A stretch of DNA of 64,000 nt. Source: Rhodococcus coprophilus NBRC 100603 (GTDB taxonomy: Bacteria > Actinomycetota > Actinomycetes > Mycobacteriales > Mycobacteriaceae). Location of the stretch: positions 1 through 64,000 of the forward strand of contig NZ_BDAM01000011.1 of NCBI RefSeq assembly GCF_001895045.1, given 5' to 3'. Shown piece after piece: positions 55,679 to 61,835 of the stretch (its first letter is position 1; each line of letters opens with the position of its first letter). The notes beneath the pieces were generated by a model. The model was given only the letters and a program-made list of their open reading frames with translations, was not told the DNA's origin and did no database searches. The position numbers were made by a program, and so were the translations under genes.

Positions 55679-57352
<1,674 letters not shown>

Positions 57353-57789: not shown

Positions 57790-58791
57790 GTGATCTCGGC
57801 GTTGTTCCGGCGAGTGATCGCCACTGTGGGGATAGGGGTGCTGGTTCTCCTCGGAGCACCGGGTATTTCGTCCGCCGAGCCCGTTTCGCATCTCTCCGAC
57901 ATCGAGGTCAAGAGCGATCGCGTCGTGGTGGCTCATGTGTACTCCGCGGCGATGGATCGTGTCGTGCCGCTGCGCGTGTACAAGCCGGCGGACACGAGCG
58001 AGCCGAGTCCGACGCTCTATCTGCTGAACGGTGCCAGTGGCGGACAGGGGGTGGCCACCTGGGATGCGCGGACGGACATGGAGGAGTTCTTCGCCGACAA
58101 GAACGTCAACGTCGTCACTCCGCTGGACGGCTCGTTCACCTACTACACCGATTGGCTTCAGGACGACCCGGTTCTGGGCCGGAACAAGTGGACGACCTTC
58201 CTCACTCGCGAACTGCCGCCGATCATCGATGCCGAATTCGGCACGACCGGTGTGAATGCGATCGCCGGGCTGTCGATGTCGGGGACCTCGGTTCTCAGTC
58301 TCGCGATCGCGGAGCCGACGTTGTACAAGGCGGTGGGTGCCTACAGTGGCTGTGCCGAAACAAGTTCCGAGCTCGGGCAACTCTATGTCCGGACGGTGGT
58401 GGAGAGTCGCGGAGAAGGAAACGCGGAGAACATGTGGGGTCCGTACGGCGGCCCCGGGTGGGTCGAGAACGATCCGTATGTCAACGCCGAGAAGTTGCGT
58501 GGCATCGATCTCTACATCTCCTCGGCTACCGGGCTGCCGGGTGAGCATGATCATCTCGGCGGTGCCGGGGTCGGCGACGATCCGGTCGTGCTGGCGAACC
58601 AGGTGGTTGTCGGAGGCGTGATCGAGGCTGCGATCGATGACTGCACCCGCAGGTTGGCCGAGCGCCTGGAGGAGTTGGAGATTCCCGCTGAATTCGAGTT
58701 CCGGCCCGCGGGCACGCACTCGTGGGGTTACTGGGAGGACGACCTGCACCAGTCGTGGCCCATGCTTGCGGAGGCTCTCGAGGTTCGCTGA
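57790..58791 (+). CDS. Antigen-85-type mycolyltransferase, copy 1
   Basis: A 333-residue secreted alpha/beta hydrolase of the trehalose/protein mycolyltransferase family. Signal peptide to ISSA (residue 29); LYLLNGASGGQGVATWD; PLDGSFTYYTDW; KWTTFLTRELPPIIDAEF; nucleophile elbow GLSMSG with Ser162; catalytic His in GTHSWGYWEDDL. Transfers mycoloyl groups to trehalose, arabinogalactan or proteins. GTG 57790 has GGGAGG 8 nt upstream. Near-duplicate of the next gene. Its neighbours (groEL, tiny membrane peptides) suggest an envelope locus and possibly protein O-mycoloylation. Confidence 0.9.
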   Translation: MISALFRRVIATVGIGVLVLLGAPGISSAEPVSHLSDIEVKSDRVVVAHVYSAAMDRVVPLRVYKPADTSEPSPTLYLLNGASGGQGVATWDARTDMEEFFADKNVNVVTPLDGSFTYYTDWLQDDPVLGRNKWTTFLTRELPPIIDAEFGTTGVNAIAGLSMSGTSVLSLAIAEPTLYKAVGAYSGCAETSSELGQLYVRTVVESRGEGNAENMWGPYGGPGWVENDPYVNAEKLRGIDLYISSATGLPGEHDHLGGAGVGDDPVVLANQVVVGGVIEAAIDDCTRRLAERLEELEIPAEFEFRPAGTHSWGYWEDDLHQSWPMLAEALEVR

Positions 58792-59289: not shown

Positions 59290-60291
59290 GTGGTCTCGGC
59301 GTTGTTCCAGCGGATAGTCGTGGCAATGGCGACAGGTGCCACGATTCTCATCGGGATTCCGAACATTGCTGCTGCCGAGCCTGTTTCGCATCTCTCTCGC
59401 ATCGAGGTCGAGAGCGATCGGGTCGTTGTGGCCTATGTGTACTCCGCGGCGATGAAGCGTGTCGTGCCGCTGCGTGTCCGTACACCGGCCGACGCGAGCG
59501 AGCCGAGGTCCACCCTGTATCTGCTCAACGGTGCCAGCGGTGGGCAGGGTGTCGCGACGTGGGATGTGCAGACGAACATCGACGAGTTCTTCGCCGAGAA
59601 GAACGTCAACGTCGTTACTCCGCTGGAGGGGTCGTTCAGTTACTACACCGATTGGATTCGGGACGACCCGACTCTGGGCCGGAACAAGTGGACGACGTTC
59701 CTCACTCGTGAACTGCCGCCGATCATCGATGCCGAATTCGGTACAACCGGTGTGAACGCGATTGCGGGGTTGTCGATGTCGGGGACGTCGGTTCTGAGTC
59801 TCGCGATTGCGGAGCCGACGCTGTACAAGGCGGTGGGTGCCTACAGCGGTTGTGCCGAAACGAGTTCCGAACTGGGACAGTTCTATGTCCGGACCGTGGT
59901 CGAAAGTCGCGGAGAAGCGGATGCGGAGAACATGTGGGGCCCGTTCGACGGTCCGGGTTGGGTCGAGAACGATCCGTATGTCAACGCGGAGAAGTTGCGT
60001 GGCATCGACCTGTACATCTCGTCGGCTTCCGGGCTGCCGGGCAGGCACGAGCATCTCGCCGCCCGCTCCGTGGGCAACGACCCGGCTCTGTTGCTGAACC
60101 AGGTAGTGGTGGGTGGCGTGATCGAGGCCGCGGTCGACGACTGCACCCGTCGTCTCGCTGCGCGACTCGAAGAGTTGGGTATTCCCGCTGTGTTCGAATT
60201 CCGCCCGACGGGAACGCACTCTTGGGGCTATTGGGAGGACGACCTGCATCAGTCGTGGCCCATGCTTGCGGAGGCTCTCGGGGTGCGCTGA
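59290..60291 (+). CDS. Antigen-85-type mycolyltransferase, copy 2
   Basis: 333 residues, aligned with copy 1 without gaps; most of the mature protein is identical, while the signal peptide (ATGATILIGIPNIAAAEP) has diverged. Same GLSMSG nucleophile elbow (Ser162) and HSWGYWEDDL His motif. Differences cluster on loops (for example EHLAARSVGNDPALLLN against DHLGGAGVGDDPVVLAN). GTG 59290 with GGGAGGGG upstream. A tandem duplication kept with its own promoter implies either dosage or a split of acceptor specificity. Confidence 0.9.
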   Translation: MVSALFQRIVVAMATGATILIGIPNIAAAEPVSHLSRIEVESDRVVVAYVYSAAMKRVVPLRVRTPADASEPRSTLYLLNGASGGQGVATWDVQTNIDEFFAEKNVNVVTPLEGSFSYYTDWIRDDPTLGRNKWTTFLTRELPPIIDAEFGTTGVNAIAGLSMSGTSVLSLAIAEPTLYKAVGAYSGCAETSSELGQFYVRTVVESRGEADAENMWGPFDGPGWVENDPYVNAEKLRGIDLYISSASGLPGRHEHLAARSVGNDPALLLNQVVVGGVIEAAVDDCTRRLAARLEELGIPAVFEFRPTGTHSWGYWEDDLHQSWPMLAEALGVR

Positions 60292-60305
60292 GGTATTCGC
60301 CGACC

Positions 60306-60333
60306 TGGGCGCTCGCCGTAGCGAGCCGCCCGG
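60306..60333 (+). terminator. Terminator of mycolyltransferase 2
   Basis: GGGCGCTCGC pairs with GCGAGCCGCCC (one bulged G) around CGTA. A smaller GTTGTGCGACAAC palindrome followed by GTTTTT at 60350-60367 could be a second terminator or an operator. Confidence 0.65.
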
Positions 60334-60406
60334 GGTGATCTCGTGTGTTGTTGTGCGACAACGTTTTTGGGATGCAGTTTCCGTCAAGAATTGTACTGCC
60401 GAGATG

Positions 60407-60435
60407 TTGACGCTTCGACTACCGCACACTAGTGT
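60407..60435 (+). promoter_or_regulatory. SigA-type promoter of the small-peptide operon
   Basis: TTGACG (-35) and TAGTGT (-10) with a 17-nt spacer, 69 nt upstream of the first peptide start. A TTGTGTCACAA palindrome at 60461-60471 lies in the transcribed leader, a possible operator. Confidence 0.6.
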
Positions 60436-60503
60436 TACCTGCGACACAGCCCGAAAGAGTTTGTGTCACAACAATTTCCGTTCAATGATCATCAGGAGGA
60501 CGC

Positions 60504-60581
60504 ATGGGTAGCACGACCATAACCGAGATCATCAACTTCTTCTTCTCCCTGCTCTTGCAGAGCGCGCAGTTCTTCAGCTGA
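60504..60581 (+). CDS. Tiny hydrophobic peptide 1, candidate mycomembrane porin subunit (PorA/PorH-like)
   Basis: A 25-residue frame from ATG to TGA with AGGAGGA 3-4 nt upstream, too short for gene finders. The peptide begins MGSTTITEIINFFF and ends QSAQFFS: mostly hydrophobic, one acidic residue, no basic residue, four Ser and three Thr, no signal peptide. It shares its MGS start and its strong ribosome binding site with the peptide 90 bp downstream, and lies on one unit bounded by promoter and terminator. In Corynebacterium, signal-less porins PorH and PorA are encoded downstream of groEL2 and O-mycoloylated on Ser. The location beside groEL and two mycolyltransferases fits that model. A hydrophobic toxin peptide is the alternative. 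Confidence 0.6.
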   Translation: MGSTTITEIINFFFSLLLQSAQFFS

Positions 60582-60670
60582 TCCCAGCTGTACCCGATCG
60601 TTGCTGTGCCTGACGCCGCTGTATTCGACACCCGGGGACACGAGGTCTCCGGAAGTAATCTGGAGGAAAA

Positions 60671-60763
60671 ATGGGTAGCATCTCCAACGGTTTGGAAGTC
60701 ATCAGCCAGCTCGTCGAACTGATTCTGGTGATCACGCCGGCGATCCTGACCGGGTCGCTCTAG
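60671..60763 (+). CDS. Tiny amphipathic peptide 2, candidate mycomembrane porin subunit (PorA/PorH-like)
   Basis: A 30-residue frame from ATG to TAG with GGAGG 4 nt upstream. Starts MGSISNGLEVISQLVELILV and ends ILTGSL. Glu9, Gln13 and Glu16 fall on one face of a helix whose other face is Leu/Ile/Val, so residues 7-22 can form an amphipathic helix. There is no basic residue, no cysteine and no signal peptide; net charge is negative. Corynebacterial PorH/PorA are likewise short, acidic and signal-less, and work as a pair. A terminator follows 18 bp after the stop. Confidence 0.6.
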   Translation: MGSISNGLEVISQLVELILVITPAILTGSL

Positions 60764-60781
60764 GCCGCGAAACGTCCGAAC

Positions 60782-60817
60782 AGGCCGTGGGTTCCCGAAG
60801 TCGGGTACCCACGGCCT
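60782..60817. terminator. Terminator of the small-peptide operon
   Basis: AGGCCGTGGGTTCCCGA and TCGGGTACCCACGGCCT pair over 17 positions with one mismatch and a 2-nt loop, followed by CTCTCCGTTCTT. It can also serve the convergent transporter gene. Confidence 0.85.
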
Positions 60818-60845
60818 CTCCGTTCTTCGGCTCGTGCCGAGTGGA

Positions 60846-61835
60846 TCACTCGCTGAACGCCGGTTCGGGCGCCTGTTTCGCGAGCCGGGCCGCGATGGCT
60901 GCGCACACAAGCAGTTGAATCTGATGAAAAAGCATGAGGGGCAGGACGATCAATCCGATGGGCTCTCCGGGAAACAGCACCGTCGCCATCGGAAGTCCGG
61001 TCGCAAGCGACTTGGTGGAACCGCAGAACAGGATCGCCGCGCGGTCCTCGTACGAGAATCCGAGCTTGGGTGGTGCGAACCAGGTGAGTGCCAGCACGAT
61101 CGCCAGCAGGAGTATGCACACGCCCACGAGTGCGAGGAGGCGGAGCACGGACAACTGAGTCCAGATCCCCTCGTTCATGCCGCGGCTGAAGGCCACGTAG
61201 ACGACGAGCAGAATCGAACCGCGGTCGACGAGCTTGAGGGGCTTGCCGTGTGCGGTGACCCAGCCACCGATCCAGCGGCGCAGGACCTGGCCCGCGACGA
61301 ACGGGACGAGCAGCATGAGGACGATGTCCAGCACTGCCGCGGAACTGAAGGTGACTCCTTGCGTACTCATGGTCACGGCCACGAGGGCCGGGGTGAAGAG
61401 GATGCCGAGCAGGCTCGACGCGGAGGCCGAGACGACCGCTCCGGGAATATTGCCGCGCGCAACGGAAACCAACGCGATCGAGGACTGCACCGTCGAGGGC
61501 AACAGGCACAGGTACAGCACACCGAGATAGAGCGGATCGCTGAGGAGCCACGGGACGAAGACCTTTGCCGCAAGCCCGAGGAGCGGGAAGATCACAAATG
61601 TGGTCGCGAGGATGGTCGCGTGCAGCCGCCAGTGCTTCAGGCCCGCGACTGCTTCCGCGGTGGACAGGCGCGCGCCGTACAGGAAGAAGAGCAGGCCGAT
61701 CGCAATCTTCGATGCCCATGTAAAGACGTCGAGTCCGATGCCGTGTGCGGGCAGGGCCGCGGCGACGGCAACTGTCAGCACGATCCCGATGAGGAAAGGG
61801 TCGAGTCGGTTGAGAAACGGGATCTTCGCCAGCAT
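60846..61835 (-). CDS. SBF-like bile acid:sodium symporter family transporter
   Basis: A 329-residue membrane protein of the SBF-like (YfeH/PF13593-type) family with about 10 TM segments: IAIGLLFFLYGARLSTAEAVAGLKHWRLH, LLPSTVQSSIALVSVARGNIPGAVVSASASSLLGILFTPAL, AAILFCGSTKSLATGLPMATVLF. The last motif (GSTKSL) is the conserved crossing region. Substrate unknown, probably an organic anion. Divergent from the LysR gene, which likely controls it. Confidence 0.9.
   Translation of the reverse strand: MLAKIPFLNRLDPFLIGIVLTVAVAAALPAHGIGLDVFTWASKIAIGLLFFLYGARLSTAEAVAGLKHWRLHATILATTFVIFPLLGLAAKVFVPWLLSDPLYLGVLYLCLLPSTVQSSIALVSVARGNIPGAVVSASASSLLGILFTPALVAVTMSTQGVTFSSAAVLDIVLMLLVPFVAGQVLRRWIGGWVTAHGKPLKLVDRGSILLVVYVAFSRGMNEGIWTQLSVLRLLALVGVCILLLAIVLALTWFAPPKLGFSYEDRAAILFCGSTKSLATGLPMATVLFPGEPIGLIVLPLMLFHQIQLLVCAAIAARLAKQAPEPAFSE

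Follow-up and report, generated by a model that had tools for sequence, protein, structure and literature searches.

The stretch of Rhodococcus coprophilus DNA analysed here (64,000 nucleotides; hereafter the window) contains two small genes, an observation that the present analysis confirmed. Their products, peptides A and B, form a conserved pair that reaches roughly half to two thirds of PorH/PorA in size and are encoded beside members of the enzyme class that mycoloylates proteins. We consider the chances evenly balanced that A and B are a signal-less, amphipathic pair of the mycomembrane, probably O-mycoloylated and most likely assembled into a helical hetero-oligomeric pore. This reading draws on features of the sequence, namely coding, conservation, pairing, amphipathicity, Cmt1-type neighbours and the position after GroEL, from which we infer co-transcription, lipidation, location, export and the pore.

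If it holds, peptide porins and protein mycoloylation would extend to another lineage, well outside Corynebacterium, A and B would be minimal Cmt1 substrates, and the pair would offer a simple system for asking how signal-less proteins reach the mycomembrane. To our knowledge, the two peptides would also be smaller than any known natural pore subunit. No earlier description of such peptides was found in the open-access literature, to which the search was largely confined.

The two small genes and their signals

The features of the region, in window coordinates, are as follows.

55694-57352, plus strand: GroEL, C-terminus GGMGGMDF (start of the listed open reading frame; translation may in fact begin further inside)
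57793-58791, plus strand: mycoloyltransferase 1, Cmt1-type, PF00756 by Pfam (start approximate)
59293-60291, plus strand: mycoloyltransferase 2, Cmt1-type, PF00756 by Pfam (start approximate), candidate modifying enzyme
60407-60435, plus strand: promoter-like element TTGACG-N17-TAGTGT, read from the sequence; TTGAC and TA..GT invariant in 8/8 alignment rows
60494-60499, plus strand: Shine-Dalgarno AGGAGG of peptide A, read from the sequence; invariant in 8/8 alignment rows
60504-60581, plus strand: frame of peptide A from the ORF listing, 25 aa, MGSTTITE...FFS, net charge -1, amphipathic
60662-60667, plus strand: Shine-Dalgarno GGAGGA of peptide B, read from the sequence; present in 8/8 genomes
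60671-60763, plus strand: frame of peptide B from the ORF listing, 30 aa, MGSISNG...TGSL, net charge -2, penultimate Ser
60782-60817, no strand: inverted repeat (self-match on the opposite strand), terminator-like stem-loop

A first-pass annotation had described frames of 25 and 30 residues with strong ribosome binding sites, MGS starts, no basic residues, a hydrophobic or amphipathic character and no signal peptide, and all of this is borne out. Both peptides start with MGS and contain no K, R or H, neither has a signal peptide as judged by eye, and mean Eisenberg hydrophobicity is 0.44 for A and 0.51 for B. Compared with shuffled sequences, the helical moment gives p values of 0.009 (window A) and 0.003 (window B); p falls below 0.05 for 17 of 20 A peptides and for all 14 B peptides.

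The flanking signals are less clear-cut. The proposed promoter is present, as TTGACG (60407-60412) and TAGTGT (60430-60435) at a spacing of 17 nucleotides, and is conserved in 8/8 rows, but a scan with the sigma-70 consensus returned 0 promoter sites on the two strands and left it uncalled. What had been called a 17-bp terminator is indeed a stem-loop, the stretch 60770-60830 folding at -34.4 kcal/mol (z -5.66). However, with 11 + 4 pairs around one mismatch the given length is slightly generous; the repeat lacks a strong T run and went uncalled in the terminator scan. Similar palindromes occupy this position in several alignment rows, as judged by eye, and the repeat could serve both convergent units.

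That A and B look protein-coding follows from a comparison of eight genus genomes, that of R. coprophilus included, in which a DNA search of 18 genus genomes detected the region. The first-pass annotation had named equal variation at synonymous and nonsynonymous sites as a ground for abandoning the genes; the opposite was found, with pN/pS values of 0.18 for A and 0.37 for B. Third positions vary in 15 of the 24 codons of A (permutation p 0.0024) and in 24 of the 29 codons of B (p 0.00025), values to be taken as guides only since related sequences are not independent. In the shifted frames stops appear and the coding signal is lost, and the spacer between A and B varies from 58 to 114 bases. 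The third-position pattern, these stops and the variable spacer make it very improbable that the frames are untranslated and conserved as an RNA or a regulatory element, a reading to which the strong stem-loop at the end of the unit would lend itself. A non-coding RNA, named at the outset beside a toxin-antitoxin pair as a ground for refutation, was rejected on the coding signature of both frames and on the absence of any Rfam match in 60250-60900.

A stringent filter (ATG start codon, Shine-Dalgarno, length of 20-45 aa, no K, R, H or C, at least 40% hydrophobic residues), set after the peptides had been seen, returns A and B as the only matches in the 64 kb window. It gave zero matches in 95 kb around the genome's other mycoloyltransferases. 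The 25 control loci, 76 kb in all and taken from weak profile matches rather than drawn at random, likewise gave none. Applied to 50 GroEL-downstream or related stretches (L152-L201, partly overlapping), it found peptides in 10 and none in 40. The coding test, with its pN/pS and third-position counts, is independent of this post hoc filter.

Distribution, pairing and neighbourhood

An A profile of 16 rows, applied to 401 family genomes with a cut-off of E up to 0.05, identified A in 19 genomes belonging to 6 of 31 genera; none of the 19 lies in g3, the genus where PorA was found. B or a B-like frame follows 3' of A on the same strand in 19/19 of these genomes, although in G283 the contig ends within B, which was identified by eye. 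With E allowed up to 1, the B profile listed 108 of the 251 genomes scanned, 13 of them at E below 1e-5, and loose profile matches in long frames, or partial ones, were excluded from A/B membership. A plasmid collection contained no match for either peptide.

Among named genomes, an A-type DNA pattern matched 13 stretches, a list that is incomplete because the pattern covers just one form of A. Eleven are labelled Rhodococcus and include R. phenolicus, R. jostii NBRC 16295, R. marinonascens, R. spelaei and one MAG. The others are one Jongsikchunia kroppenstedtii and one flavobacterial MAG, in which the pattern (L118 3252-3285) would reflect chance or a mis-binned contig. In Jongsikchunia G029 the only B form is a B-like frame extended at its N-terminus, and G042 has one such extended frame besides a nearer MGS frame, its A starting with MPTT instead of MGS. 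The extensions, partly basic and preceding the GS core (L050 ~1613-1486 on the minus strand and L059 ~1560-1640), could be processed leaders; a similar-looking extended frame occurs in G036 (L160, downstream of GroEL).

Several genomes carry more than one copy: A/B-like pairs number three in R. marinonascens G144 and two in G122, and G065 has B twice. The tandem, diverged pairs of G144 (L078 9627-11340) and G122 (L079 8756-9455) suggest local duplication and diversification. Diversified tandem copies of two adjoining short, hydrophobic, amphipathic and leaderless peptides would also fit a secreted two-peptide bacteriocin or modulin-like surface-active peptides. Such a role is nevertheless improbable: in the window both A and B lack basic residues and carry a negative net charge, the 10 annotated neighbours from 5 loci include one amino-acid permease and one mycoloyltransferase but no exporter or immunity gene, and the neighbours that do recur at A/B loci are instead mycoloyltransferase and GroEL.

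In the window both had been claimed by the first-pass annotation, and both are found. The best PDB match of mycoloyltransferase 2, which lies 216 bases from the start of A, is Cmt1 (8qhf/4h18, 276 bits, with PS1 at 170 bits), and the same holds for mycoloyltransferase 1 (268 bits, with PS1 at 163 bits). The two enzymes separate A from GroEL, whose end lies 3.1 kb upstream. Over the 19 A-bearing loci, a homologue of the window mycoloyltransferases lies at most 1.5 kb from A in 16, the match in G144 being partial (33-37% over ~150 residues), and GroEL lies at most 3.2 kb from A in 12. The distance from GroEL shrinks to 0.3-1.1 kb in G065, G081, G122, G144 and G355. G003, G007 and G063 have a mycoloyltransferase near A and no GroEL in the stretch fetched, which in G003 ends ~2 kb upstream, its GroEL sitting on another contig. 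Neither gene was found around A in the Jongsikchunia genomes G029 and G042 (stretches of 19.5 and 16 kb), and in G283 neither a mycoloyltransferase nor GroEL was found within 1.5 kb upstream and 0.17 kb downstream of A.

Seen from the enzymes, the association is one-sided, because the other eight mycoloyltransferase loci of the R. coprophilus genome (10 matches in total) carry no A/B-like peptides by the filters used. Four of these eight were compared with the PDB, three being Cmt1-type (263, 257 and 230 bits) and one closer to PS1; the comparison with Cmt1 thus covers six enzymes of this genome, including the two in the window. Similarly, mycoloyltransferases lie near GroEL in G016, G017 and at the GroEL locus of G042, where the peptides were not found.

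The window adds a BASS-like transporter adjoining A/B. Since size and hydrophobicity also match those of small membrane toxins or transporter regulators, A and B might be small membrane proteins, either type I toxin-like or regulatory, that form no envelope structure. This is quite improbable given that two peptides are co-conserved, that no Rfam match (60250-60900), no PADLOC match and no promoter on either strand was called, and that a BASS match recurs at 1 of 14 other A/B loci, some of whose stretches end early. A toxin-antitoxin or defence system was rejected, there being no PADLOC match and no recurrent antitoxin-like neighbour among the 10 annotated proteins.

A candidate mycomembrane pair and related frames

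By analogy with Corynebacterium, A and B would be expressed together, made in the cytosol and carried across the inner membrane without a signal, by a route common to corynebacterial PorH, PorA and ProtX. The adjacent Cmt1-type enzymes would then probably O-mycoloylate the terminal serines, the last Ser of A and the penultimate Ser of B. In the mycomembrane the two would assemble, most likely into a small hetero-oligomeric pore with its narrow polar face inward, the pore being the least certain part of the proposal.

The terminal residues are well kept. A ends in Ser in 19 of 20 peptides (the exception is G355), and the Ser of the TGSL end of B is retained in 18/18 aligned rows and is strictly penultimate in 15. 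In the excerpt of PMC5310785, PorH is mycoloylated at S56, within its C-terminal NFSS, and ProtX at its penultimate residue, Ser37; the sites are Ser or Thr near small residues with no strict consensus, and Rhodococcus is said to have close Cmt1 relatives (excerpt of PMC11066868). According to the excerpt of PMC12632848, corynebacterial porins are O-mycoloylated by Cmt1, which their assembly requires; in C. glutamicum, PorH levels drop without Cmt1, and PorH assembles at the surface only if PorA is present and one or both of the two are mycoloylated. The same excerpt gives the export route of PorH/PorA as unknown and reports a predicted helical ring of 5+5 subunits.

We counted in favour of the mycomembrane pair the coding conservation, the 19/19 pairing, the proximity of the enzyme at 16/19 loci, Cmt1 as best solved match of both window enzymes, the terminal serines and the amphipathicity, as well as the three enzyme-near loci where no GroEL was found (G003, G007, G063), the GroEL, PorH-like frame, PorA order at 6/6 loci and the other tiny acidic frames of genomes that lack A/B. 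Counted against it were the lack of homology to PorH/PorA, a length of 25-30 residues compared with 37 aa for PorACur, and MspA-family matches in 18/18 genus genomes. The same side holds the enzyme-less G029, G042 and G283, the partial match of G144, the three Cmt1-type loci without peptides, and G016, G017 and the GroEL locus of G042, with enzymes near GroEL and no peptides found.

The main rival, which we regard as rather unlikely, keeps A and B as mycoloylated components of the mycomembrane with an anchoring or organising role and no pore, after the manner of ProtX. This small mycoloylated protein, modified at its penultimate Ser37, is of unknown function in the excerpt of PMC5310785, and it is reported as linked to the cell wall in that of PMC12632848. 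The mycoloyltransferase neighbourhood and the terminal serines fit such a role equally well, and class C peptides (see below) occur in five genomes without a pair, an enzyme or GroEL within 1.5 kb. With MspA-family matches in 18/18 genus genomes there is no gap needing a new porin, and A and B may instead act as a scaffold, as has been suggested for ProtX. However, the 19/19 pairing and the amphipathicity of both members better suit a two-part pore.

A/B is absent from 10 of the 18 genus genomes, and in 8 of these 10 a different kind of tiny acidic frame, preceded by a ribosome site, lies near GroEL or a mycoloyltransferase. Adding the 8 genomes with A/B, 16/18 have some such frame, or 13/18 once classes E and F, which are candidates seen in two genomes each with partly weaker ribosome sites, are left out. 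Class D (35-36 aa) is found in five genus genomes lacking A/B, adjoining an enzyme match in 5/5 (in two partial pieces in G005); of three further weak matches (G015, G038, G079), that of G015 lies beside the enzyme. Class D frames (L153 5216-5326; L193 2308; L194 2358; L195 5298; L221 1498-1608; L226 1498-1626, 42 aa; L224 1504-1611; L225 1438-1545) mostly lie 3' of mycoloyltransferase genes, and MGS-starting D-like forms occur in two g22 genomes with no enzyme match nearby. Class E was found in G001 and G006, class F in G014 and in G003, where A/B lies elsewhere; these frames follow GroEL (L155 5952-6523; L197 818-1012; L199 6576-6752; L200 806-999). G016 and G017 have no tiny acidic frames in the ~7 kb after GroEL.

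Class C comprises MGS peptides of 21-28 aa in 11 of 251 family genomes at E up to 0.01 (L075 10101; L080 7982; L077 8068; L152 846; L211-L215 1501 or 1569). It lies beside a mycoloyltransferase or GroEL in five of the 11 and has neither within 1.5 kb in six; in five g24 genomes of 6.1-7.5 Mb, again with no enzyme or GroEL match within that distance, it is identical. The idea that such peptides always accompany a mycoloyltransferase is therefore wrong: besides these six, it is contradicted by A/B without the enzyme in G029 and G042 and by class E, around which no mycoloyltransferase match was found in 7.7 kb stretches. The helical moment reaches p<0.05 in 1 of 4 C peptides, in E2, in E3 and in all four PorH/PorA sequences tested; class D and E1 peptides are not significant.

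The first-pass annotation had proposed searching the intervals downstream of groEL in related genera. A/B proved conserved in several Rhodococcus species and relatives, but most of the stretches sampled in other genera, including members of g23 and g29, held nothing convincing (that of G032 ended after 311 bases). Longer acidic frames of ~47-63 aa follow GroEL in G020 (g4; L178 6327-6485 and nearby) and G184 (g3; L181 5361-5546 and 6350-6541). Tentatively, and at slightly less than even confidence, we suggest that Rhodococcus and its relatives possess, beside MspA, a second outer-membrane channel or scaffold system made of fast-diversifying signal-less peptides of 21-42 residues (A/B, C, D, perhaps E and F), mostly encoded beside GroEL or Cmt1-type mycoloyltransferases.

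Comparison with known mycomembrane proteins

A small channel protein of R. erythropolis is reportedly described in older work. The Rhodococcus cell-wall channels with known genes are, in the excerpt of PMC9233653, of the MspA type (PorARr, PorBRr and PorARc). They differ from A and B in carrying signal peptides and in size, mature PorARr and PorBRr having 234 and 180 aa. The R. coprophilus genome has two MspA-family matches, at other loci, and neither A nor B matched PF09203 (MspA) up to E 1. Pfam and NCBIfam offered no family for A, B or C, PADLOC none for A/B, and the PDB no solved homologue of B. The A and B profiles share only their MGS start; B shows a weak similarity to class C (probability 39%).

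PorACur (37 aa) and PorACj (40 aa) are likewise very small channel peptides of the groEL2 region (excerpts of PMC5944148 and PMC3792995), PorACur being called the smallest by its authors (PMC5944148, same excerpt). Unlike the proposed pair, they are single-polypeptide channels, and they are larger than A or B. ProtX resembles A and B in being small and signal-less, and it is mycoloylated on a penultimate Ser (Ser37), the position occupied by Ser in 15/18 B rows, but the excerpts of PMC5310785 and PMC12632848 describe no partner peptide for it, whereas A and B are paired.

PorH and PorA come closest. The claim that A and B are their shorter counterparts is supported as regards the coding two-peptide unit, the Rhodococcus setting, the mycoloyltransferase neighbours and the groEL2-downstream position of porH-porA in Corynebacterium; sequence homology does not support it, nor does size, given the 45-57 residues of the corynebacterial proteins. 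Membership by sequence was rejected on hhalign comparisons, which gave probabilities of 4.8% for A against PorH and 0.5% for B against PorA. However, PorA itself is detectable by sequence in just 6 of 81 genomes of its own genus, so that the missing homology weighs little against a common origin. PorH and PorA are longer (~57 and 45 aa, compared with 25 for A and 30 for B), and the six 3 kb Corynebacterium loci contain no mycoloyltransferase match. In all six loci found with PorA in g3, which is taken as Corynebacterium on the ground that PorA is found there, the order is GroEL, PorH-like frame, PorA, as expected from porH-porA lying downstream of groEL2 (excerpts of PMC3792995 and PMC5944148). 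These proteins are mycoloylated by Cmt1, PorH near its C-terminus at S56 in the excerpts cited above, and, like A and B, they are two tiny, signal-less, mostly acidic and amphipathic peptides encoded in tandem, in the case of PorH and PorA after groEL2.
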